Part shown: positions 41,444 through 53,271 of the stretch, piece after piece
Position numbering within the stretch: position 1 is the first letter of the stretch
How the letters are laid out: each line of letters opens with the position of its first letter
NCBI RefSeq assembly: GCF_031085175.1
Contig: NZ_JAVHUY010000004.1
Coordinates: forward strand, 124,001-188,000
DNA length: 64,000 nucleotides
Direction of reading: 5' to 3'
Source: Phytohabitans maris
GTDB taxonomy: Bacteria; Actinomycetota; Actinomycetes; Mycobacteriales; Micromonosporaceae
Notes under the pieces: model-generated
What the model was told of the DNA's origin: nothing
Databases searched by the model: none
The model's input: only the letters and a program-made list of their open reading frames with translations
Program-made: the position numbers and the translations under genes

Positions 41444-44134
41444 CTAACGGCTGTCGGACCCGGCCGCCGCCGACGCGACCGCGGCGCGGCCGGCCTCCAG
41501 GCGGGCCACCGGCACCCGGAACGGGGAGCAGGAGACGTAGTCCAGGCCGATCGCGTGGAAGAAGTGGATCGAGTCCGGGTCGCCGCCGTGCTCGCCGCAG
41601 ACGCCGATCTTCAGGTCCGGGCGGGCCGCCCAGCCCTCGTCGGCGGCCATCCGCACGAGCCGGCCCACGCCGGGCACGTCCAGCGACTCGAACGGCGAGA
41701 CGCCGAAGATGCCCATCCCCAGGTAGCGCGGGAAGAACGTGCCCTCCACGTCGTCCCGGGAGAAGCCCCAGCCGAGCTGGGTCAGGTCGTTCGTGCCGAA
41801 CGAGAAGAACTCCGCCGCACCCGCGATCTCGCCGGCGGTGACCGCCGCCCGGGGCACCTCGATCATCGTGCCGATCCGCACGTGCGGCAGGCCGCCGATC
41901 TCGTCGAGGATGCGTTCCGCCTCGGCGCGCACGGCCTCGAGCTCCTGCACGGCCGCGACCAGCGGCACCATGATCTCCGGCCGGGGGGAGCGGCCGCGGG
42001 CGGCGCAGTCGGCGGCCGCCTCGGCGATCGCCCGCACCTGCATGGCGAAGAGGCCGGGCACGACCAGGCCGAGCCGCACGCCGCGCAGCCCCAGCATCGG
42101 GTTCTGCTCGTGCATCCGCCGCACCGCGCCGAGCAGGGCGCCGTCCCGCCCCGGGTCCTGGCCGAGCGCCTCGGCCCGGGCCACCTTCGCGGTCAGCTCC
42201 TCCAGCGGGGGCAGGAACTCGTGCAGCGGCGGGTCGATCAGCCGCACGGTGACCGGCAGCCCGTCCATCGCCTCGAAGATCTCCACGAAGTCGGCCCGCT
42301 GCAAGGGAAGCAGCGCGGCCAGCGCCGCCTCCCGCTCGCCGTCCGCGTCGGCCGCGGTCTCGGCCAGGATGAGGCGCTCCACCAGGGCGCGGCGCTCGCC
42401 GAGGAACATGTGCTCGGTGCGGCACAGGCCGATCCCCTCGGCCCCGAACCGCCGCGCCCGCGCCGCGTCGCCACCGGTGTCGGCGTTCGCCCGGACCTCC
42501 ATCCGCCGCGACCGGTCGGCGTGCAGCATCAGCCGGTGAACGGCGTCGAGCAGCGCGTCCTGCCCGGCCGGCTCCTCGCCCTCGAAGTAGCGGGCGACGG
42601 GGGAGGGGTGCACCGGCACCTCGCCGAGGAAGACCTCGCCGGTGGCGCCGTCGATCGAGACGACGTCCCCTTCGGACACGACCGTACCGTCCACAGTGAA
42701 CCGTGCACTGTCGGTGTCCACGTCGAGCGCGTCCGCGCCGCAGACGCAGGTCTTGCCCATGCCCCGGGCCACCACGGCGGCGTGCGACGTCTTGCCGCCG
42801 CGCGAGGTGAGGATGCCCTGCGCGGCGATCATGCCGGGCAGGTCGTCCGGGTTGGTCTCCCGCCGGACCAGGATGACCTTGTCGCCGGCGGTGGCGCGCT
42901 CGGCCGCGCGGGCCGCGTCGAACACCACCCGGCCGCTGGCCGCGCCGGGGGAGGCCGGCACGCCGACCGCGAGCGGCTCGGGTGCGGCCGCGCGGTCGAA
43001 GCGGGGGAACATCAGCTGGGCCAGCTGCGCGCCGGTGACCCGGCGCAGCGCCTCGTCCAGGTCGATGACGCCCTCGTCGACGAGCTGGGCGGCGATCGTG
43101 AACGCGGCGGCCGGGGTGCGCTTGCCCACCCGGGTCTGCAGCATCCACAGCTTGCCCCGCTCGATGGTGAACTCGATGTCGCACAGGTCGCGGTAGTGGT
43201 GCTCCAGCTTGTCCATGATGGACAGCAGCTGGTGGTGGCTGTGCCGGTCGATCCGTTCCAGCTCCTGCAGCGGCACGGTGTTGCGGATCCCGGCGACGAC
43301 GTCCTCGCCCTGCGCGTTGGCGAGGTAGTCGCCGTACACGCCGCGCACGCCGGTGGCCGGGTCGCGGGTGAACGCCACGCCGGTACCGGAGTCGGGGCCG
43401 AGGTTGCCGAAGACCATCGCCATCACGTTCACGGCGGTACCGAGGTCCTGCGGGATCCGCTCCTGCCGGCGGTACAGCACGGCCCGCTCGGTGTTCCACG
43501 ACTTGAAGACCGCCTCGATCGCCAGGTACAGCTGCTCGTGCGGCGCCTGCGGGAACTCGCGGCCGGTGTGGTCGTGGAAGACCTTCTTGTACGCGTCGAC
43601 GAGGTGCCGCAGGTCGGCGGTGCTGAGCTCGGCGTCCGTGGCGACGCCGGCGTGGCTCTTGTGCGCGTCGAGCTCGTGCTCGAACGCCTCGCCCGGCACC
43701 CCGCACACCGTCTTGCCGAACATGCCGATCAGCCGCCGGTACGAGTCCCACGCGAACCGCGGGTCGCCGCTCTGCGCGGCCAGGCCCTGCACGCTCACGT
43801 CGGTCAGCCCGATGTCCAGGACGGTGTCCATCATGCCGGGCATGGAAAACTTCCCGCCGGAGCGGACGGAGAGCAGCAGCGGGTTGGCCGGGTCGCCGAG
43901 CGCCTTCCCCAGCCGCTCCTCGACCAGCTGCAGGTGGGCGTTCACCTGGTCGAACAGCCCGTCCGGCACGGTGCCGCCGGCCAGGTAGGCGCGGCACGCC
44001 TCGGTGCTGATCGTGAACCCCGGTGGCACCGGCAGCCCCAGCCGGGTCATCTCGGCGAGGTTGGCGCCCTTGCCACCCAGCAGGTCCTTGAGGTCTTTTC
44101 CACCCTCCACGAAGTCGAACACGTACTTGGGCAT
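41444..44134 (-). CDS. ppdK: pyruvate, phosphate dikinase
   Basis: 896 aa from ATG 44134, preferred over the adjacent GTG because GAGAGGCGG lies 7 nt upstream. The ATP-grasp N-domain begins KYVFDFVEGGKDLKDLLGGKG. The phosphohistidine is His451 in TSRGGKTSHAAVVARGMGK. The C-terminal barrel contains GLCRTEHMF and VCGEHGGDP. It reversibly converts pyruvate, ATP and phosphate to PEP, AMP and PPi. In hypoxia it may regenerate PEP or gain energy from PPi. A perfect palindromic DosR-like box is 94 nt upstream. Confidence 0.96.
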   Translation of the reverse strand: MPKYVFDFVEGGKDLKDLLGGKGANLAEMTRLGLPVPPGFTISTEACRAYLAGGTVPDGLFDQVNAHLQLVEERLGKALGDPANPLLLSVRSGGKFSMPGMMDTVLDIGLTDVSVQGLAAQSGDPRFAWDSYRRLIGMFGKTVCGVPGEAFEHELDAHKSHAGVATDAELSTADLRHLVDAYKKVFHDHTGREFPQAPHEQLYLAIEAVFKSWNTERAVLYRRQERIPQDLGTAVNVMAMVFGNLGPDSGTGVAFTRDPATGVRGVYGDYLANAQGEDVVAGIRNTVPLQELERIDRHSHHQLLSIMDKLEHHYRDLCDIEFTIERGKLWMLQTRVGKRTPAAAFTIAAQLVDEGVIDLDEALRRVTGAQLAQLMFPRFDRAAAPEPLAVGVPASPGAASGRVVFDAARAAERATAGDKVILVRRETNPDDLPGMIAAQGILTSRGGKTSHAAVVARGMGKTCVCGADALDVDTDSARFTVDGTVVSEGDVVSIDGATGEVFLGEVPVHPSPVARYFEGEEPAGQDALLDAVHRLMLHADRSRRMEVRANADTGGDAARARRFGAEGIGLCRTEHMFLGERRALVERLILAETAADADGEREAALAALLPLQRADFVEIFEAMDGLPVTVRLIDPPLHEFLPPLEELTAKVARAEALGQDPGRDGALLGAVRRMHEQNPMLGLRGVRLGLVVPGLFAMQVRAIAEAAADCAARGRSPRPEIMVPLVAAVQELEAVRAEAERILDEIGGLPHVRIGTMIEVPRAAVTAGEIAGAAEFFSFGTNDLTQLGWGFSRDDVEGTFFPRYLGMGIFGVSPFESLDVPGVGRLVRMAADEGWAARPDLKIGVCGEHGGDPDSIHFFHAIGLDYVSCSPFRVPVARLEAGRAAVASAAAGSDSR

Positions 44135-44227
44135 CACCGGCCGCCTCTCGCTCGACGCAGGTCGTCACTTCCGGTGGTACCAAGGCGGAGGCGGCGTCTC
44201 CCAGTGCCGAAGGGAACCGACCAGCTC

Positions 44228-44241
44228 GGGACCTTGGTCCC
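44228..44241. promoter_or_regulatory. perfectly palindromic DosR-like box upstream of ppdK
   Basis: TCGGGACCTTGGTCCCGA is nearly an 18-bp perfect palindrome (core 44228-44241), matching the extended SGGGAC-N4-GTCCCS form of the DosR box, 94 nt upstream of ppdK. Confidence 0.72.
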
Positions 44242-44296
44242 GAGGCCGGCCGCGGCCGGGGTAATGTGGTCGGGACGACGCGATCCCGGCGTCGCG

Positions 44297-44390
44297 CGGC
44301 GGTGGGGCCCGCCGACCCCCCCGGGGGTAAACCGCGCCGACCGCCAACGGTCCCTACCGGCAAGCCGACCATGCGTGCTGGTAGGAGGAG
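44297..44390 (+). promoter_or_regulatory. probable fluoride (crcB) riboswitch with inserted hairpin and Shine-Dalgarno-pairing platform
   Basis: The leader can be aligned to the known crcB aptamer. CGGC (44297-44300) and GCCG (44311-44314) enclose GGTGGGGCCC. AAACCG follows at 44329-44334. GGTCCC (44349-44354) can pair with GGGGCC, and it is followed by TACCGG. An extra 14-nt self-complementary block of C and G (44315-44328) sits where the aptamer normally runs straight into the AAAC segment. Downstream, CCTACCGGC (44353-44361) is complementary to GCTGGTAGG (44377-44385), which overlaps the Shine-Dalgarno AGGAGG. Aptamer and sequestering helix are therefore mutually exclusive, as a translational switch requires. 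Position directly before two fluoride-channel genes supports the call. Confidence 0.72.
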
Positions 44391-44393
44391 CGC

Positions 44394-44918
44394 ATGACCG
44401 ACCCCGCCCGGAGCGTCGACCCGGACGTCGATCTCCACATCCCCGGCCAGCGGCGCGAGCTGAGCCCCAGCCCGTGGCCGGTGCTCGTGGCCGTCTCGGC
44501 CGGCGGCGTGCTCGGCGCCCTGGCCCGGTACGGGCTCGCCGAGGCGGTCCCGCGCCCGCCCGGCGGGTTCCCCTGGGCGACGTTCGCGGCGAACCTCTCC
44601 GGTTGCCTGCTCATCGGCGTCCTCATGGCCCTGGTCGACCAGGTGTGGAGCGGCCGGCGCCTGATCCGCCCGTTCCTCGGCGTCGGTGTGCTCGGCGGCT
44701 ACACGACCTTCTCCACGTACGTCGTCGACACCCAGCGCACCGTCGCCGACGGCGCCCCGGGCACCGCCCTGCTCTACCTGGCCGCGACGATGGCCGGCGC
44801 GCTGCTCGCGGTCTGGGCCGGCACCGCCGCGACCGGCGCCGCGCTCGCCCGCCGGTCCCGCCCCGCCGACCAGGAGCGCTACGCCGTCGCCGGCCAGGCC
44901 CGGGAGACCGGCCGGTGA
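44394..44918 (+). CDS. crcB: CrcB/Fluc fluoride channel subunit 1
   Basis: 174 aa from ATG 44394, 4 nt after AGGAGGAG. Four membrane segments are visible. Family motifs are GGVLGALARYGLA, FPWATFAANLSGC and GGYTTFSTYVVDT, the last holding the Phe/Thr/Ser residues that line the pore. Fluc channels are dual-topology dimers that leak fluoride out of the cell. Two unequal adjacent genes usually form a heterodimer. The 30-residue polar N-terminus and polar C-terminus are longer than average. Confidence 0.93.
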   Translation: MTDPARSVDPDVDLHIPGQRRELSPSPWPVLVAVSAGGVLGALARYGLAEAVPRPPGGFPWATFAANLSGCLLIGVLMALVDQVWSGRRLIRPFLGVGVLGGYTTFSTYVVDTQRTVADGAPGTALLYLAATMAGALLAVWAGTAATGAALARRSRPADQERYAVAGQARETGR

Positions 44919-45277
44919 CCGTACTGCTGGTCGTGCTCGGCGCCGCCCTGGGCGCCCCGGCGCGCTACCTGGTCGACCGGCTCGTCCAGGCCCGCCACGA
45001 CTCCGTCTTCCCGTGGGGCACCCTCGCCGTCAACGTCGCCGGCTCCGCCCTGCTCGGCTTCCTCGCCGCCCTCCCCGCCAGCCCCGCCGTGACGGCCGCC
45101 CTGGGGACCGGTTTCTGCGGCGCGCTGACCACGTACTCGACGTTCAGCTACGAGACCCTCCGCCTGGCCCAGGACGGCGCCCGCTTCTACGCCCTCGCCA
45201 ACATCACCGCCAGCCTCGCCGGCGGCCTCGGCGCCGCATACGTAGGCATGGTCGCCGCCACCGCCCTGACAACCTAG
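44915..45277 (+). CDS. crcB: CrcB/Fluc fluoride channel subunit 2
   Basis: 120 aa from a GTG overlapping the first crcB stop (GTGA). Motifs are GAALGAPARYLVDR, FPWGTLAVNVAGS and CGALTTYSTFSYET. It has the standard four-helix size of a Fluc subunit. Strong translational coupling with subunit 1 supports a heterodimer in equal amounts. Confidence 0.93.
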   Translation: MTVLLVVLGAALGAPARYLVDRLVQARHDSVFPWGTLAVNVAGSALLGFLAALPASPAVTAALGTGFCGALTTYSTFSYETLRLAQDGARFYALANITASLAGGLGAAYVGMVAATALTT

Positions 45278-45305: not shown

Positions 45306-45359
45306 GTGATCGAAGCTCCCCTCAAGTCGCTAGAACGACGTGAAGGGAGCTTCGATCAC
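45306..45359. repeat. dispersed palindrome family A, copy 3
   Basis: A 54-bp element with 15-bp terminal stem GTGATCGAAGCTCCC and loop CTAGAA, differing from copy 2 by only three bases. The bases to the left (CCGCTTTCGGAGTCGG...TGATG) also match the left flank of copy 2. It lies 29 nt after the crcB2 stop, placed to end the riboswitch-crcB transcript. Confidence 0.9.
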
Positions 45360-45766
45360 GGACCAGACAGATGTGCCCCGGTCCGCATCACCTGCGGACC
45401 GCACGCGCGGGGTCCCCGGGGAAACGTGGAGCGCAGCGGAGCGTTTTCTTGGGGGTGCTTTCCCGCGGGCACCGCTGCGGCCGGCGGCTCGCAGCGCTCG
45501 CCGACTTCCCCGGCCTCCGCTGCCACCTCCGCGCGGGCTTCACGCGCGCGTCCGCCGCCGGACCCGGGACGTGCGTGCGTGAAGCTCTGGAGCTGCCCGC
45601 GCAGACGGGGCAGCCCGGTAGCCGCCCGAAGAGACATGGACCGCTCGTGGGACGGCCGTCGGGGGCGAGCGCCCTCGCCGCTGGCGAGGAGGGGGACCGT
45701 GACCAGGCGCGGGAGCGACGGTCGGGGCACAATGCCACTCACGGTAGTTCGCCGGGCGGCGGTCGA

Positions 45767-46086: not shown

Positions 46087-47724
46087 CTACAGGTCGTTGC
46101 CGGCGTAGGAGAGGTTGAAGCTTTTGTTGGTGAGGGGGAAGTCGGGAACGATCGTGTTGGCCAGGGCCACGGGGAGTGCGGGCCAGTTGAGGAACGACGG
46201 GTCGACGACCTTGACGCGGGTGAGGGTGCCGTCGGGGCGTAGCTCGACGCGGTGGACGACGGTGCCGCGCCAGCCCTCGACGATGCCGACCCCGGACCGG
46301 GGGCCGTCGGCCGCGGACCCGGCCCCGGCTGCGGACCCGGACCCGGCCGTGGACCCGGACCCGGCCGTGGACCCGGACCCGGCCGTGGACCCGGACCCGG
46401 CCGTGGACCCGGACCCGGCCGTGGACCCGGACCCGGCCCCAGCCCCGGCCCCGGCCGCGGTCCGGCCGGCGGTGAGCGACGGTAGCAGGCTGGCCAGGAG
46501 CGCGGTCGACGCCTGTACCTCGTCGGCGCGGACCAGGAAGCGGGCGCGCACGTCGCCGTCCTCGTAGACCGGGACGGTCAGGCCGGCGAGGTCGGCGAGG
46601 TCGGTGTGCGGGTGGGCGACCCGGGCGTCGAGGGGCAGGCCGCTGGCGCGGGCGACGTACCCGAGGGTGCCGATGTCGGCGGCCTGGGTGGTGGTGAGCG
46701 TGGCGGTGCCGGTGAGCCGGTCGCGGACGATGGTGTTGCGCAGGGCGGTGGCCACCAGGTCGGCGAGGTCGGCGGCGATCGCCTGGACCGTGGCGGGGTC
46801 GGGCACCTCGGCGAGTTGGGTGCCGCCGGGGAAGACGGCGCCGCGCAGCAGGCGGTGGCCGGTGGTGCGCTGGTTGAGGCGGAGCAGCTGCTCGCGGATC
46901 CGCTGGGTGTGCGCGTGCGCGATGCCGTACCCGACGTCGTTGCAGATGGCGCCGATGTCGGCGGCGTGGTTGTGCAGGCGTTCGAGCTCCAGGAGGGCGG
47001 CGCGGGCCCGCTGCGCCCCGGCCGGTACCGGGATGTCGAGAGCGTCCTCGACGGCGAGGCTGTAGGCGAGGGCGTGGCCGACCGCGGTGTCGCCGCTGAT
47101 CCGTTCGGCGAGGCCGACGCGGGAGCCGGCGGGCTGCCCCTCGAAGAGCTTCTCGATTCCTTTGTGGACGTACCAGAGGCGGGCCTTGAGCTTGAGGATG
47201 GTCTCGCCGACCACGGAGAACCGGAAGTGGCCGGGCTCGATCAGCCCGGCGTGCACCGGGCCGACCGGGATCTCGTAGACGCCGGGGCCCTGGACGGTGA
47301 GGAACGGGAAGGGTTCGGTGGCGGCCAGCGGCGGGCGGGGTCCGGCGTCGGCGCGCATCGGGTGCCAGCCGTGCGGCCAGTGCGGGTGGCGGACCAGGCG
47401 GCGGGGGAGCGGATGGTCCTGCGGGTGCACGCCGTACAGGTCGTGCATCTCGCGCTCGAAGCGGCCGGCCGGGAACGACAGCGCGGCGAGGCTGGGCACG
47501 GTGGGGTGGTCGGGGTCGGTGCGCAGGTGCAGCTCGGTACGGCGGTCCGGCGGGCCGGCGGTGAACAGGTACACGACGCGGATGGCGGCCCCGCCGGGGT
47601 GGTCGGGCGGGTCGTGGTGGGCGGCCACGAGCGCGAGCCGGGCGCCGCCGTCCAGCAGCTTCCGGGCGTGGTCGGCGAGGGTGTCGGCGGTGACGTCGAC
47701 GACCTGGGTCGCGGTCACGGTCAC
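46087..47724 (-). CDS. hydrogenase-4/complex-I-like large subunit (NuoC-NuoD fusion) lacking NiFe ligands
   Basis: 545 aa from a GTG overlapping the previous stop. Residues 1 to about 160 are a 30-kDa NuoC-like domain (FPAGRFEREMHDLYGVHPQDHPLP); the rest is NuoD/HycE-like (VGPVHAGLIEPGHFRF, WYVHKGIEKLFEG, ERLHNHAADIGAICNDVGY). The positions that carry CxxC pairs in NiFe hydrogenases read ERISGDTAVGH and FPLTNKSFNLSYAGNDL, with no cysteines, so no Ni-Fe centre can form. Residues about 429-464 are a GSGSTA repeat linker encoded by an 18-bp tandem repeat, splitting the C-terminal domain. It corresponds to M. tuberculosis Rv0087 (HycE). It may be a quinone-binding or structural subunit. Confidence 0.85.
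   Translation of the reverse strand: MTVTATQVVDVTADTLADHARKLLDGGARLALVAAHHDPPDHPGGAAIRVVYLFTAGPPDRRTELHLRTDPDHPTVPSLAALSFPAGRFEREMHDLYGVHPQDHPLPRRLVRHPHWPHGWHPMRADAGPRPPLAATEPFPFLTVQGPGVYEIPVGPVHAGLIEPGHFRFSVVGETILKLKARLWYVHKGIEKLFEGQPAGSRVGLAERISGDTAVGHALAYSLAVEDALDIPVPAGAQRARAALLELERLHNHAADIGAICNDVGYGIAHAHTQRIREQLLRLNQRTTGHRLLRGAVFPGGTQLAEVPDPATVQAIAADLADLVATALRNTIVRDRLTGTATLTTTQAADIGTLGYVARASGLPLDARVAHPHTDLADLAGLTVPVYEDGDVRARFLVRADEVQASTALLASLLPSLTAGRTAAGAGAGAGSGSTAGSGSTAGSGSTAGSGSTAGSGSTAGSGSAAGAGSAADGPRSGVGIVEGWRGTVVHRVELRPDGTLTRVKVVDPSFLNWPALPVALANTIVPDFPLTNKSFNLSYAGNDL
46333..46440. repeat. 18-bp tandem repeat, six units, inside the hyc-like large subunit gene
   Basis: GGACCCGGACCCGGCCGT is repeated five times perfectly, followed by one variant unit. 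On the coding strand each encodes GSGSTA or a close variant. The number is a multiple of three bases, so copy-number change keeps the frame. Confidence 0.95.
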
Positions 47725-49175
47725 CGCCCCCCGGTCACGGTGGTGGCGGCCGTGTGCAGCAGGTCCTGCAGCGGGCCGAGGCTGATGCCGAGCACCGCGG
47801 CGGCCGCGAGGCCGAGGGCGAGGGGCACGACGGCGGCGGCCCCGGGCCGGGCCTCGCCCGCCGGGAGCGAGCCGGGCGGGCCGAGCAGCATCGCGGTGCC
47901 GTTTCGGGCCAGGGCCGCGAAAGCGACCAGGACCAGCGTGAACGCGGCCGCGACCGCCCACCCCTGCCCGGCGGCCAGGCCGGCGCGGGCGATGGCGAGC
48001 TCGGAGGCGAAGAGGCTGAACGGCGGCAGGCCGAGCAGCGCGACCACGGCCAGGCCGAGGCAGGCGGCCAGGCCGGGGCGCTGGGCGGCGAGGCCCCGCA
48101 CGGCGGCGATGCGGGAGCTGCCGGAGAGCCGCAGCAGGTGGCCGGCGCCGCAGAACGCGACCGCCTTGCTCAGCCCGTGGCCGAGCACGTGCAGCAGGGT
48201 GGCGGTGATGGCCAGCCGGCTGCCGGTGGCGGTACCGAGGGCGATCAGTCCCATGTGCTCGATCGAGGAGTACGCGAGCATGCGCTTGTAGTCCTGCTGG
48301 GCGATGAGCAGCCCGGCCGCGACGGCGAGCGAGGCGAGGGCCGCGACCAGCAGCAGGACGCGCAGGTACCCGGGGCCGAGGACGGCGTCGGCGATCGGCT
48401 TGTACCGCCAGATCGCGTAGAAGGCGACCGACAGCAGGACGCCGGACATGAGCGCGGAGACCGGTGCCGGTGCCTGGCTGTGCGCGTCGGGCAGCCAGGC
48501 GTGCATGGGGGCCAGCCCGGCCTTGGTGCCGAAGCCGAGCAGGAGCAGACCGGTGGCGAGCCGGATCAGGTCGGGCTCCAGGGCGCCGGCGTGCCCGGTC
48601 AGGTGGGTCCAGTTGAGGGCGGCGGTGCCGTGCAGGTCGGCCGCGACCGCGGCGGCGTACACGCAGGCGGTGCCGAGGAACGCGATCGCGATGCCGACCG
48701 AGCAGAGCACCACGTACTTCCAGGCGGCCTCCACGCTGGCCCGGCTGCGCCGGTGGCCGACCAGGAACGCGGTGACGATCGTGGTCGCCTCGACCGCGAC
48801 CCAGAGCACGCCGAGGTTGTCGGCGAGCACGGCCAGGCTCATCGCGGCCAGGAAGAGCTGGACCAGGATCAGGTACCGGCGGGCGGCGGCCGGGGTCTCC
48901 GCGTTGTCGGCGAGCTGGTGGACGCCGGCCCAGCAGGCGATGGTGGCGACCGCCCCGATGACGATCAGCATGAACGCGGTCAGCGCGTCGGCCCGCAGCA
49001 GCCCGGCGCTCACCGCCGCCGAGCCGTTGGTGGCGAGGGCGACGCCGGCGGCGAGGATGGCGGCGGCGGCGCCGACCCCGGCCCAGGCGCCGGTCCGGCG
49101 GCCGGCCGCCACCGTGGTCAGGGCGGCGGCGAGGGGTGCGGCCAGGGGGACGAACAGGGGGAGGGTGGAGGTCAT
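47721..49175 (-). CDS. HyfF/HycQ-like proton-pumping membrane subunit
   Basis: 484 aa from an ATG overlapping the upstream stop (ATGA), with about 13-14 membrane segments. It has the NuoL/M/N antiporter-like core: VEATTIVTAFLVGH, GTKAGLAPMHAWLPDAHSQAPAPVSALMSG, the discontinuous-helix Lys/His residues, and YSSIEHMGL. It corresponds in order to Rv0086 (HycQ). Expected role is proton or cation translocation as part of a membrane-bound oxidoreductase. Confidence 0.88.
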   Translation of the reverse strand: MTSTLPLFVPLAAPLAAALTTVAAGRRTGAWAGVGAAAAILAAGVALATNGSAAVSAGLLRADALTAFMLIVIGAVATIACWAGVHQLADNAETPAAARRYLILVQLFLAAMSLAVLADNLGVLWVAVEATTIVTAFLVGHRRSRASVEAAWKYVVLCSVGIAIAFLGTACVYAAAVAADLHGTAALNWTHLTGHAGALEPDLIRLATGLLLLGFGTKAGLAPMHAWLPDAHSQAPAPVSALMSGVLLSVAFYAIWRYKPIADAVLGPGYLRVLLLVAALASLAVAAGLLIAQQDYKRMLAYSSIEHMGLIALGTATGSRLAITATLLHVLGHGLSKAVAFCGAGHLLRLSGSSRIAAVRGLAAQRPGLAACLGLAVVALLGLPPFSLFASELAIARAGLAAGQGWAVAAAFTLVLVAFAALARNGTAMLLGPPGSLPAGEARPGAAAVVPLALGLAAAAVLGISLGPLQDLLHTAATTVTGGR

Positions 49176-49822
49176 CGGTCGCGTAGCTCTCGTAGGTCGT
49201 CCAGGTCGGTGTCGCCGAACGCCGCCTGCAGCCGGGTGGTCAGCACCTGCAGCACGAGTACGGCCAGGAGCAGGTCGGCGGAGACGCCGAGCTCGACGAC
49301 GAGCGGTACCCCGCCGGTGGCCAGGAACGCCACCGCGGCGATGCCGTTGTCGACCAGCAGCAGGCCGACGATCTGCGACACCGCGCGGCGGCGGGTGGCG
49401 GCCAGGAAGAAGCCGATCAGCACCACGGCGAGGCCGACCGGCGCGGCCCGGGCGGTGGCGGCGGGCGCCAGGTCGACCAGCGGCCGGGCGGCGGCGTACG
49501 CCAGCAGGGTCATCGCGGCCGCCGCCAGCAGGGACGCGGCGACGTTGACCAGCGGCGCGGTCTCGCGCGCGGCCGGCACCCGGGCCAGGATCCGGCGCAG
49601 CAGCCAGGGCAGGACACCGGCCTTGAGCACGCCGACGGCGACCGCGACGGCGAGGGCCTCCGGGTGCGGGTCGTCGAGGGCGAGGAGCACCGCGATGCCG
49701 GCGAGCGCGGCGCCCTGCAGGGTGAGCAGGCCGATCAGGGCGGTCAGCTCCCGGCGCCAGAGCACGCCGACCGCGCAGAGCAGGAACAGCCCGCAGGCGA
49801 GGCTGAGCAGCTGGTCGTTCAC
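49172..49822 (-). CDS. HyfE/HycP-like membrane subunit
   Basis: 216 aa from GTG 49822; an ATG two codons earlier (49828) is possible, but GGAAGGG is then too close, whereas it is 6 nt from the GTG. About six TM segments are present. NuoK-like features include LLVDNGIAAVAFLATGG and an acidic residue in a membrane segment (VELGVSADLLLAVLVLQVL). It ends with a charged DTDLDDLRELRDR. It matches the position of Rv0085 (HycP). Confidence 0.85.
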   Translation of the reverse strand: MNDQLLSLACGLFLLCAVGVLWRRELTALIGLLTLQGAALAGIAVLLALDDPHPEALAVAVAVGVLKAGVLPWLLRRILARVPAARETAPLVNVAASLLAAAAMTLLAYAAARPLVDLAPAATARAAPVGLAVVLIGFFLAATRRRAVSQIVGLLLVDNGIAAVAFLATGGVPLVVELGVSADLLLAVLVLQVLTTRLQAAFGDTDLDDLRELRDR

Positions 49823-49838
49823 CGGCATCCCTTCCCGG

Positions 49839-50780
49839 TCACGCCAGCACGCTGGCGGTGAGGACCGCCAGCAGGCCCAGGACGAAGGAGCCGGCCAGCA
49901 GCTCCGGGACCCGGAACAGGCGCACCTTGGCCAGGAACACCTCACCGGCGGCGAGCAGCCCGCCGAGCGCGAAGACCTTCACCGCGAACAGCGCGGTGGC
50001 GCCGGCGAGCGCGGCCGGGTGCAGGCTGGTCGCCACGCCCCAGGGCAGGAAGAGGGTGGCCAGCAGGCCGAGCAGGATGCTGAGCCGCATCGCCGCGGCC
50101 CACTCGACGAGTGCCAGGTCGCGGCCGGCGTACTCGAGCACCATGGCCTCGTGCACCATGGTCAGCTCCAGGTGGGTGCTCGGGTTGTCCACCGGCAGCC
50201 GGCCGGACTCGGCGAGCACGGCGACGGCCAGCGCGGCGGCGGCGAGCGCGCCCACCGGGCTGATCACCCGGGCCGGGTCGGCGGCGCCGGCGGCGACGAT
50301 CGCGGCGAGGTCGGTCGAACCGACCCGGGTGGAGAGCGCGAAGACGGCCAGCAGCAGCGTCGGCTCGACCAGCGCGGCGATGGTCATCTCGCGGCTGGCC
50401 CCCATGCCGCCGAACGCGGTGCCGGTGTCCAGCCCGGCCAGCGCGAGCGCGACCGTGCCGAGCAGCAGCAGCCCGACCACCACGACCAGGTCGGCGACGC
50501 CGGAGAGCGGGCCGCGGGTGGAGACGTACGGGGCGGCGCCGGCGATCAGCAGGCTGGTGGCCATCAGGACCGGTGGCGCCGCCACGAAGAACACGCCCGC
50601 GTCGGCCGGGGTGATCGGCTCCTTGCGCAGCTGCTTGCGCAGGTCCCGCCACGGCTGCCCGAACCGCCCGCCGGCGCGCCCCTCCAGCCGGGCCCGCACC
50701 GCGCGCATCCATCCGAGCAGCCACGGTGCGAGGGCCGCGACCAGGACGGCCTGCCCGGCGGCGACGGCGTACGCGGCCAT
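49839..50780 (-). CDS. HyfC/HycD (NuoH-like) membrane subunit
   Basis: 313 aa from an ATG overlapping the upstream stop by one base pair of codons. It shows WRDLRKQLRKEPITPADAG, GGMGASREMTIAALVEPTLLL and the acidic loop HEAMVLEYAGRDLALVEW, characteristic of NuoH/HycD proteins at the quinone-side interface. About eight TM segments. It matches Rv0084 (HycD). Confidence 0.92.
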   Translation of the reverse strand: MAAYAVAAGQAVLVAALAPWLLGWMRAVRARLEGRAGGRFGQPWRDLRKQLRKEPITPADAGVFFVAAPPVLMATSLLIAGAAPYVSTRGPLSGVADLVVVVGLLLLGTVALALAGLDTGTAFGGMGASREMTIAALVEPTLLLAVFALSTRVGSTDLAAIVAAGAADPARVISPVGALAAAALAVAVLAESGRLPVDNPSTHLELTMVHEAMVLEYAGRDLALVEWAAAMRLSILLGLLATLFLPWGVATSLHPAALAGATALFAVKVFALGGLLAAGEVFLAKVRLFRVPELLAGSFVLGLLAVLTASVLA

Positions 50781-52798
50781 CACCGCACCGCCGCGGCGAA
50801 CAGGACGAGGATCAGGGCGGCGAGCATGTAGGCCAGGTACCGGTGCACGCTGCCGGTGGCGAGGCCGCGGGCGGCCCGGCCGGCCACCTCGACCGCGGCG
50901 ATCAGCGGCCGGTACAGCCGGGCCTCGATCCGGTCCGGGAGCCGCCGCCGGTACTGCACCGAACGGACCAGGTACGCCGACTCGGCGGCCGGGGTCACGT
51001 CGACGTCCTGCTCCGGCGCGAGTACGTCGTCGAAGACCCGCTGCAGCGGCTCGGCGAACGAGGTCGCGGTGTACTCCATCCGGGCGGTCAGCGGCCCGTC
51101 CCCGCAGTCCCACGCGGCCGCCCGCCGCCGGGGCCGGCCGGCCAGGCGCGCCATCACCGCGGTCGCGACCGCCAGCCCCACCACGCCGGCCGCTATCCAC
51201 AGTGGAGCGATCGTGGAGCCGACGCCGGCCAGGCGCAGGTCGACGGCGCCGCCCTCGAACGGTCGGGGCCCGGCCCGGAGCCCGGCGGTGACCCGGTCCA
51301 GCGCCGGTCCGGCGAGCGCGGGCAGCACCGCCAGCGCGCAGCAGGCCGCGGCGGCCAGGACCATGCCGGCCACCATCGACGGCGGGGACTCGCGCGCGGC
51401 CGCCGCCTCCTCGCCGCGCGGCCGGGCCAGGAAGCCGGTCCCGACCACCTTGACGAACGTCGCCACGCCGACCCCGGCGGTCAGCGCGACCACCGCCACC
51501 GCCACCGGCGCCACGACCGTCCACAGTGTACCGGCGTCGGTCGCCTGGTGCAGCAGCGCCTGCAGCAGCAGCCACTCGGAGACGAACCCGTTGCCGAGCG
51601 GCAGTGCGGCCGCGCCGAGCGCGCCGACGCAGACCAGCGCGGTGGTGGCCGGCATCCGCCGGGACAGGCCGCCGAGCCGGTCCAGGTCGCGGACCCCGGT
51701 GCCGCGCAGCACCGAGCCGGCGCCGCAGAACAGCAACGCCTTGAACCCGGCGTGGTTGGCGGCGTGCAGCAGCGCGGCGGCCAGCGCCACGGCGGCCACG
51801 GCCGGCTGCCCGGCGCTGGCCAGCAGTCCCGCGGCGGCCAGGCCGAGCAGGATCAGGCCGACGTTCTCGCTCGTGGAGAACGCCAGCAGCTTCTTGAGGT
51901 CGGTGGCGACCGCCGCCTGCAGGATGCCGTACAGGGCGGAGAGCATGCCCACCGCGCCGAGCGCCAGCCACCACCACCGCGGCCCGCCGCCGAGCAGGTC
52001 GAAGCCGAGCCGCACGATGCCGTACACGCCGAGCTTGACCATGGCGGCGCTCATCAACGCCGACACGTGCGCCGGCGCCTCGGCGTGGGCACGGGGCAGC
52101 CACGGGTGCAGCGGTACCGCGCCCGCCTTCGCGGCGAACCCGGCCACGCAGAGCACGAACACCCCGCCGCGGACCGGCCCGGACAGGCCTCCCGCGGCGT
52201 CCTGGATCGCCGCGAACGACGGGTCGCCGGCCGCCGCGGCCAGCCACACCAGGCCGATCAGGATGGTGACGAAGCCGGCCTGCGTCATCACCGCGTACCA
52301 GAGTCCGGCCGGCAGCACCGCCGGGCCGTGCCGGTGCTCGACGAGGACCAGCAGCAGCGAGGTGACCGCGGTCAGCTCCCAGGCGAGCAGGAACGTCGGT
52401 ACGTCGGCGGCGGCCGGCACCAGCAGCATGGCGGCCACGAAGACCGGCAGCAGGGCGAGTGGCCCGCGCGCGCCGGGGCCGTGCCCGCCCCGCCCGGCGT
52501 ACCCGATGGCGTAGACGCCGACCACCACCGCGACCGCGCCGGTCAGCAGCAGGAACCAGCCGGCGAGCGGGTCCACCGCGAGGCTGACCCCGGCCAGCGG
52601 CAGCACGTCGGGGTACTCCGCGCGCCAGCCGTGGCCGGAGACCGCCGCGACGCCGGCCGCCGCGCCGGCCGCGCCGACCCCGGCGGTGGCGACGCCGACC
52701 GCAGCCGACCGCCACCGCGCCGGCAGCACCAGGGCCACGGCCGCGCCGGTCGCGGCCAGCACGCCCGCGGCGGCCAACCCGGTCGGGACCGGGTTCAC
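50780..52798 (-). CDS. HyfB (NuoL/N-like) antiporter-type membrane subunit
   Basis: 672 aa from a GTG overlapping the NuoB-like stop (GTGA). The pump core contains FLLAWELTAVTSLLLVLVEH, HPWLPRAHAEAPAHVSALMS and KLLAFSTSENVGLILLG, with the conserved Glu, Lys and His of proton channels. About 15-16 TM segments. The C-terminal soluble part and last TM (about residues 560-672) are as in HyfB. It corresponds to Rv0083. Confidence 0.9.
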   Translation of the reverse strand: MNPVPTGLAAAGVLAATGAAVALVLPARWRSAAVGVATAGVGAAGAAAGVAAVSGHGWRAEYPDVLPLAGVSLAVDPLAGWFLLLTGAVAVVVGVYAIGYAGRGGHGPGARGPLALLPVFVAAMLLVPAAADVPTFLLAWELTAVTSLLLVLVEHRHGPAVLPAGLWYAVMTQAGFVTILIGLVWLAAAAGDPSFAAIQDAAGGLSGPVRGGVFVLCVAGFAAKAGAVPLHPWLPRAHAEAPAHVSALMSAAMVKLGVYGIVRLGFDLLGGGPRWWWLALGAVGMLSALYGILQAAVATDLKKLLAFSTSENVGLILLGLAAAGLLASAGQPAVAAVALAAALLHAANHAGFKALLFCGAGSVLRGTGVRDLDRLGGLSRRMPATTALVCVGALGAAALPLGNGFVSEWLLLQALLHQATDAGTLWTVVAPVAVAVVALTAGVGVATFVKVVGTGFLARPRGEEAAAARESPPSMVAGMVLAAAACCALAVLPALAGPALDRVTAGLRAGPRPFEGGAVDLRLAGVGSTIAPLWIAAGVVGLAVATAVMARLAGRPRRRAAAWDCGDGPLTARMEYTATSFAEPLQRVFDDVLAPEQDVDVTPAAESAYLVRSVQYRRRLPDRIEARLYRPLIAAVEVAGRAARGLATGSVHRYLAYMLAALILVLFAAAVR

Positions 52799-53271
52799 CG
52801 GCCGGACACGCCGCGCAGCGCGGCCACGATCGCCGCCGGCTCCGGCGGGCAGCCGGGCACCAGCACATCCACGGGTACGACGTCGCCGACCGGCCCGAGC
52901 ACGCCGGGGCCGCCGGCGAACATGCCGCAGTCGCGGGCGCAGTCGCCCACCGCCACCACCATCCGCGGCCGGGGCATCGCCTCGTACGTGGTCCGCAGCG
53001 GCCCGGCCATGTTGACCGTCACCGGGCCGGTCACCGTCAGCACGTCCGCGTGGCGGGGCGAGGCGACCAGCCGCACGCCGTGGCGCTCGGCGTCGTACAC
53101 CGGGCCGAACGCCTGGCCCACCTCGATCTCGCAGCCGTTGCACGAGCCCGCGTCGACGTGGCGTACCTGCACCGACCCGGCCAGCCCGGCGGCGGCCGGC
53201 AACGGCTCCGGACGGGGCGTCGCGGGCTGCGCCACCCGCCCCCGCTCGCGGATCCTCCTGACCAGCCCCAC
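52795..53271 (-). CDS. NuoB/HycG-like small subunit with [4Fe-4S] site
   Basis: 158 aa from GTG 53271, with GGAAGGG 8 nt upstream. Cysteines are arranged as in the N2-cluster subunit: SCNGCEIE, VGDCARDCG and LVPGCPPEP. It would take electrons to or from quinone next to the NuoD-like subunit. It is the first gene of the six-gene operon and matches Rv0082. The upstream palindrome (53296-53315) probably controls it. Confidence 0.88.
   Translation of the reverse strand: MGLVRRIRERGRVAQPATPRPEPLPAAAGLAGSVQVRHVDAGSCNGCEIEVGQAFGPVYDAERHGVRLVASPRHADVLTVTGPVTVNMAGPLRTTYEAMPRPRMVVAVGDCARDCGMFAGGPGVLGPVGDVVPVDVLVPGCPPEPAAIVAALRGVSGR

Follow-up and report, generated by a model that had tools for sequence, protein, structure and literature searches.

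A probable fluoride riboswitch from an actinomycete variant group in front of a two-gene Fluc exporter in Phytohabitans maris

The window, i.e., the whole analysed stretch of 64,000 nucleotides from the Micromonosporaceae species Phytohabitans maris, carries two adjacent crcB genes on the forward strand, and the start of the second overlaps the stop of the first (44915 vs 44918). The GC content of the region is 76%, and a pyruvate phosphate dikinase gene lies on the opposite strand, pointing away from the crcB pair. An RNA resembling the fluoride aptamer was located upstream of both genes at 44297-44356. Its positions 6, 38-41, and 48 were numbered by colinearity with the aptamer of T. petrophila. 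The features of the locus are as follows:

44262-44267, + strand: TAATGT, -10-like element of a probable promoter (TANNNT at fixed spacing in homologues)
44276-44294, + strand: possible 5' leader hairpin CGACGC/GCGUCG between transcript start and P1 (from the sequence)
44297-44314, + strand: P1 stem-loop CGGCG-GU-GGGGCC-CGCCG (covariation at 1/19 and 5/14 in alignment A1; RF01734 alignment)
44304-44309, + strand: 5' strand of the pseudoknot PK1, GGGGCC, pairing with 44349-44354 (100% of cells paired, 45 sequences)
44315-44328, + strand: inserted 14-nt hairpin ACCCC-CCCG-GGGGU directly 3' of P1 (place kept, sequence covaries)
44329-44332, + strand: conserved AAAC linker (RF01734 alignment, A1)
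44334-44344, + strand: P3 stem-loop, only three pairs in the window (GCG/CGC; covariation in homologues)
44345-44348, + strand: C38 (partner of G6 at 44302), A39, A40 (partner of U48), and C41 (6.38 covariation)
44349-44355, + strand: 3' strand of PK1, GGUCCC (44349-44354), and the linchpin U48 (44355) (RF01734 alignment, A1)
44353-44360, + strand: anti-Shine-Dalgarno strand CCUACCGG, of which C44353, C44354, and U44355 also belong to the folded aptamer (97.8% of cells paired)
44378-44388, + strand: CUGGUAGGAGG, pairing partner and Shine-Dalgarno of crcB1 (covariation of the helix, spacing to the start codon)
44394-44918, + strand: crcB1, CrcB/Fluc fluoride exporter subunit of 174 aa (Pfam CRCB, 1.9e-27)
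44915-45277, + strand: crcB2, second CrcB/Fluc subunit of 120 aa (Pfam CRCB, 2.5e-30)

P1 is formed by CGGCG (44297-44301) and CGCCG (44310-44314), and its loop holds position 6 (G44302) together with the 5' pseudoknot strand. The window has all the structural elements of RF01734: P1, P3 (weak here), and a pseudoknot that joins the P1 loop to the 3' strand. The AAC linker between P1 and P3 is represented by AAAC. Both linchpin residues occur, as A44347 (A40) and U44355 (U48), and the two CRCB genes that follow provide the fluoride-resistance genes expected downstream of this riboswitch class. The pairings CGGC/GCCG and GGGGCC/GGUCCC and the AAAC that the sequence-only reading had placed here were recovered at the same positions, and the pairings covary among homologues. 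The folding energy of the leader in the window, taken as a single sequence, did not differ significantly from that of shuffled sequences (z of -1.16 and +0.32), and such folding does not recover the pseudoknot. Support for the element is therefore comparative. A competing hairpin, GACCG/CGGUC (44339-44352), appeared in the predicted fold of the window and was left out of the mechanism because most homologues do not form it.

Rfam at its gathering threshold returned nothing over the whole window. With permissive filters, RF01734 aligned at full length at 44289-44363, treating the insert as a 13-base insertion, so the proposed search with the fluoride model did yield an end-to-end alignment, but at 12.4 bits it lies far below the gathering cut-off of 34 bits. 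Relatives scored 19-24 bits with the same model, none of the 20 variant loci tested reached the cut-off, and an RF01734 search of the element's own genome gave no match. Scores above the cut-off were obtained in only 4 of 151 genomes of the family; the loose E-value matches in these 151 genomes were mostly noise and are uninformative below about 20 bits.

Homologous elements were collected from the leaders of crcB genes, and more than 45 could be aligned, coming from Micromonospora, Dactylosporangium, Actinoplanes, Nonomuraea, Microbispora, Actinomadura, Parafrankia, Frankia, Saccharopolyspora, and Streptomyces. A covariance model (R1) built from an alignment of 45 of them, the window being one of these training sequences, scored the window element with 74.7 bits (E 2e-12), followed by a next best value of 19.6 bits in the window. 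Over the whole genome of 9.9 Mb this element was the single match. The model found elements in 59 of the 395 class genomes, 38 of the 201 family genomes, and 13 of the 396 genomes in the phylum sample. Weak E-value matches of R1 in crcB loci lacking a recognisable element were scattered, stayed below 20 bits, and were taken as noise.

Across the actinomycete homologues, compensatory changes affect P1, P3, and the insert hairpin as well as the pseudoknot and the Shine-Dalgarno helix. For the ligand-bound pairing set, 94.9% of the cells in the alignment of 45 are standard pairs compared to 39-48% with slid partners, and nine pairs change on both sides. Three of five P3 pairs do so, with 86% of cells paired. 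In the insert hairpin, the first pair is U-A in 17, A-U in 7, and C-G in 6 sequences and the fifth is G-C in 17 and C-G in 15; compensatory changes of UA/AU/CG, CG/GC, and GC/CG are seen in this hairpin. The helix with the Shine-Dalgarno region reaches 97.8% standard cells compared to 27-57% in slid controls, and double changes occur at 77/125, 79/123, and 80/122, two of the three lying outside the Shine-Dalgarno core. A40.U48 was kept in 45 of 45 homologues. With this comparative evidence and the crcB pair downstream, the earlier assignment to a fluoride-type aptamer is upheld.

Of 85 homologous leaders, 81 carry a TANNNT motif upstream of P1, at a distance of about 36 nt or about 15 nt, the window belonging to those at -36. 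Given this fixed spacing of the -10 element, transcription probably begins at the aptamer or a little way 5' of it. Where the promoter is of the far class, the stretch before P1 often holds a small 5' hairpin, and these leaders fold better than shuffled sequences on average (mean z -1.6, n=47), with only -0.4 for the window.

The strand CCUACCGG (44353-44360) has its complement in CUGGUAGG (44378-44385), which reaches into the Shine-Dalgarno AGGAGG (44383-44388). AGGAGG ends 5 nt before the ATG at 44394, and the start codons of homologues mostly follow it by 4-6 nt. The pairing of the 3' aptamer strand with the ribosome binding region, proposed beforehand from the sequence, accordingly exists as a complementarity and covaries. 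As the last two C residues of PK1 and U48 also pair with the AGG of the Shine-Dalgarno, the bound aptamer and the full Shine-Dalgarno helix exclude each other. Sequence comparison establishes these helices and their overlap, as it does the gene context and the G6.C38 swap treated below. Isolated helix energies, a rough estimate that ignores tertiary contacts, amount to -9.8 kcal/mol for the pseudoknot and -13.3 kcal/mol for the Shine-Dalgarno helix; since the latter is stronger, the hidden state should predominate in the free RNA, and the ligand would be needed to tip the balance.

Without fluoride, CCUACCGG would thus pair with CUGGUAGG and hide the Shine-Dalgarno. With fluoride, bound as a Mg2+-F- cluster, P1, P3, PK1, and the A40.U48 linchpin would lock, and the locked aptamer would withdraw two pseudoknot C residues and U48 from the AGG, so that the helix loses its Shine-Dalgarno end. 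Ribosomes could then start crcB1, making the element a translational ON switch. Fluoride binding and the direction of switching, i.e., translation rising with fluoride, are what we infer from this arrangement. Constrained folding, in which positions 6-13 were kept unpaired along with the 3' pseudoknot region (44353-44356 included), raised the unpaired probability of the first Shine-Dalgarno base from 0.01 to 1.0; the second and third bases went from 0.02 and 0.20, respectively, to 0.33. As the rest of the helix, 44357-44360 with 44378-44381, can stay paired when the aptamer is bound, freeing of the Shine-Dalgarno may be partial.

Well-studied fluoride riboswitches such as that of B. cereus crcB are transcriptional (PMC8752731), and the same type of aptamer could act here by transcription termination or Rho instead of hiding the Shine-Dalgarno. 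This is improbable, since no intrinsic terminator was predicted at 44130-44420, no U-run follows the helix 3' in 47 homologues, whose start codon is mostly 4-6 nt away, and the conserved pairing partner is the Shine-Dalgarno itself. Rho-dependent effects may occur. We hold it very likely that the element senses fluoride as a riboswitch, belongs to a variant group of actinomycetes, and switches on translation of the two-gene Fluc exporter. Translational fluoride riboswitches have been named for Pseudomonas syringae and Burkholderia pseudomallei (PMC13273304), and by that description control of translation start by the aptamer is common to them and the window group. The comparison covers the control of translation start; a feature of the window group is that the Shine-Dalgarno is paired directly by the 3' strand of the pseudoknot.

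Among 58 variant elements (L131-L196), which were found genome-wide regardless of genes, include the window, and contain a few loci from the same or near-identical genomes, 56 lie just upstream of a CrcB gene. The two exceptions are L153, on a contig fragment, and L195, upstream of a putative enolase read from the sequence. Enolase is inhibited by fluoride and often stands under fluoride riboswitches (PMC11139923). Two further G6.C38 elements precede other frames than crcB: one (L063, 1206-1274, - strand) a frame resembling a PAS-domain protein, and one (L093, 3236-3304, - strand), with its own Shine-Dalgarno helix, a short frame. The element was absent from the five congeneric genomes searched (G031, G057, G077, G091, and G103), and crcB is present in four of the five congeneric genomes also searched for CrcB. 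CrcB of Phytohabitans suffuscus is 78-79% identical to that of the window; at its locus (L051), crcB1 shows about 79% identity and the start region AGGAGGAGCGCATGACCG has been retained, but the aptamer is gone, which suggests a recent loss or gain.

In canonical aptamers, A6.U38 forms a reversed Watson-Crick pair (PMC11586693) and A40.U48 the reverse Hoogsteen linchpin (PMC8752731). Correctly parsed aptamers fetched with RF01734 from outside the group carry A6.U38, nearly always with G39 and U41, whereas the window group carries G6.C38, C41, and mostly A39. The window accordingly lacks A6.U38 and has G6.C38, a two-sided change that keeps the pair. Over 41 distinct aptamers, from which the clear misparses L196 and L215 were left out, pair 6.38 was A.U in 26, G.C in 14, and G.U in 1, with no mismatch. 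The parser made no selection on 6.38 and required A40, U48, and pseudoknot complementarity, so that in this mixed set (A3) the invariance of A40.U48 and the PK1 complementarity are partly imposed by it. Judged from these sequences, the G.C for A.U at 6.38 with U41C and usually G39A is a larger departure than the inserted hairpin, and one that the sequence-only reading had passed over.

The window shares with RF01734 aptamers (T. petrophila, B. cereus) P1, P3, the six-pair pseudoknot from the P1 loop, the AAC linker, the A40.U48 linchpin, and the place upstream of crcB (of enolase in a relative). It differs from them by G6.C38, by C41 for U41, in a group with mostly A39, and by the 14-nt hairpin between P1 and AAAC, and it scores 12.4 bits against a cut-off of 34. 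Because of the score and the missing A6.U38, the element is, by its sequence, outside RF01734 as modelled now and a sister variant in which the tertiary pair is compensated. Short-form homologues (Streptomyces, Frankia AgB1.9, Actinacidiphila, and Planotetraspora) have the G6.C38 core and the Shine-Dalgarno helix as in the window, but no insert hairpin, with a short single-stranded linker before AAC and an often longer loop between the strands of the Shine-Dalgarno helix.

The C/G hairpin noted earlier at 44315-44328 is real and shows compensatory changes, but it is not a one-off, as 31 of the 58 variant aptamers carry one. Being present in about half of the variants, missing in Streptomyces-like forms, and found at the insert point of one canonical aptamer (L192), it is no hallmark of the group. 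On the aligned sequences it is best described as a peripheral stem, optional and placed where the aptamer tolerates it, presumably with a peripheral, structure-stabilising role.

That four positions near the ion pocket (6, 38, 39, and 41) differ together would also fit a group that binds another ligand or has lost binding, with a leader that constitutively represses crcB. We consider this very unlikely, given the fluoride exporters and enolase downstream, the compensatory nature of the 6.38 change, and genome G086, in which canonical and variant aptamers stand back to back within 300 bases (L001) in a fluoride-stress gene island. The close spacing of both kinds also speaks against lineage drift alone. 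Chance C/G-rich complementarity in a region of 76% GC with no regulatory RNA, which would agree with a folding energy no better than that of shuffled sequences, is refuted by the near-identical aptamer core and covarying stems in dozens of genera and by the single strong match in 9.9 Mb, and its probability is negligible. Within the reading as a fluoride riboswitch, it is a speculative and rather doubtful extension that the G6.C38/C41 group constitutes a structurally distinct fluoride aptamer subclass with the pair rebuilt beside the Mg2+-fluoride cluster and a different affinity or ion selectivity, regulating many actinomycete fluoride exporters and missed by the standard census.

The island of G086 lies on contig 6 (L227, L228) at about 117700-142800, holds about seven fluoride-aptamer matches, six of them above noise, and mixes the A6.U38 and G6.C38 kinds. 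Its genes include enolase, MutS-like, DUF58, dynamin-like, and hydrogenase-4/complex-I-like genes. Other actinobacterial contigs (L229-L231; G631:C89, G682:C39, and G679:C26) also carry several RF01734 matches close together.

A search of the open literature returned no description of the variant from actinomycetes or Streptomyces, and a paywalled or supplementary one is possible. The switch works on a known principle; neither the variant nor its hidden spread among actinomycetes appears to have been described in the open literature searched. A recent review puts the share of Fluc exporters under riboswitch control at only about 15%, and a passage of it on S. cattleya reports extensive riboswitch use (PMC11139923). 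If based on the standard model, the 15% figure would be too low for actinomycetes, because all 20 variant loci tested stay below the Rfam cut-off. The natural swap of A.U to G.C at a tertiary pair by the fluoride site amounts to a ready-made compensatory experiment on the architecture of the aptamer. With pseudoknot, linchpin, and Shine-Dalgarno overlapping directly, the element makes a very compact translational switch that could be used in GC-rich actinomycete hosts.

Just 3' of crcB2, a long inverted repeat (GTGATCGAAGCTCCC...GGGAGCTTCGATCAC) was observed at 45306-45360, possibly a terminator without U-run or the trace of a mobile element. Further downstream, a complex-I/hydrogenase-4-like cluster at 46087-53143 (- strand), convergent to crcB, encodes 49-kDa and 30-kDa type subunits and two Proton_antipo_M proteins. 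A similar cluster stands behind a canonical fluoride riboswitch in G086 (L001, minus strand), and this parallel hints at a fluoride-linked function of the cluster.
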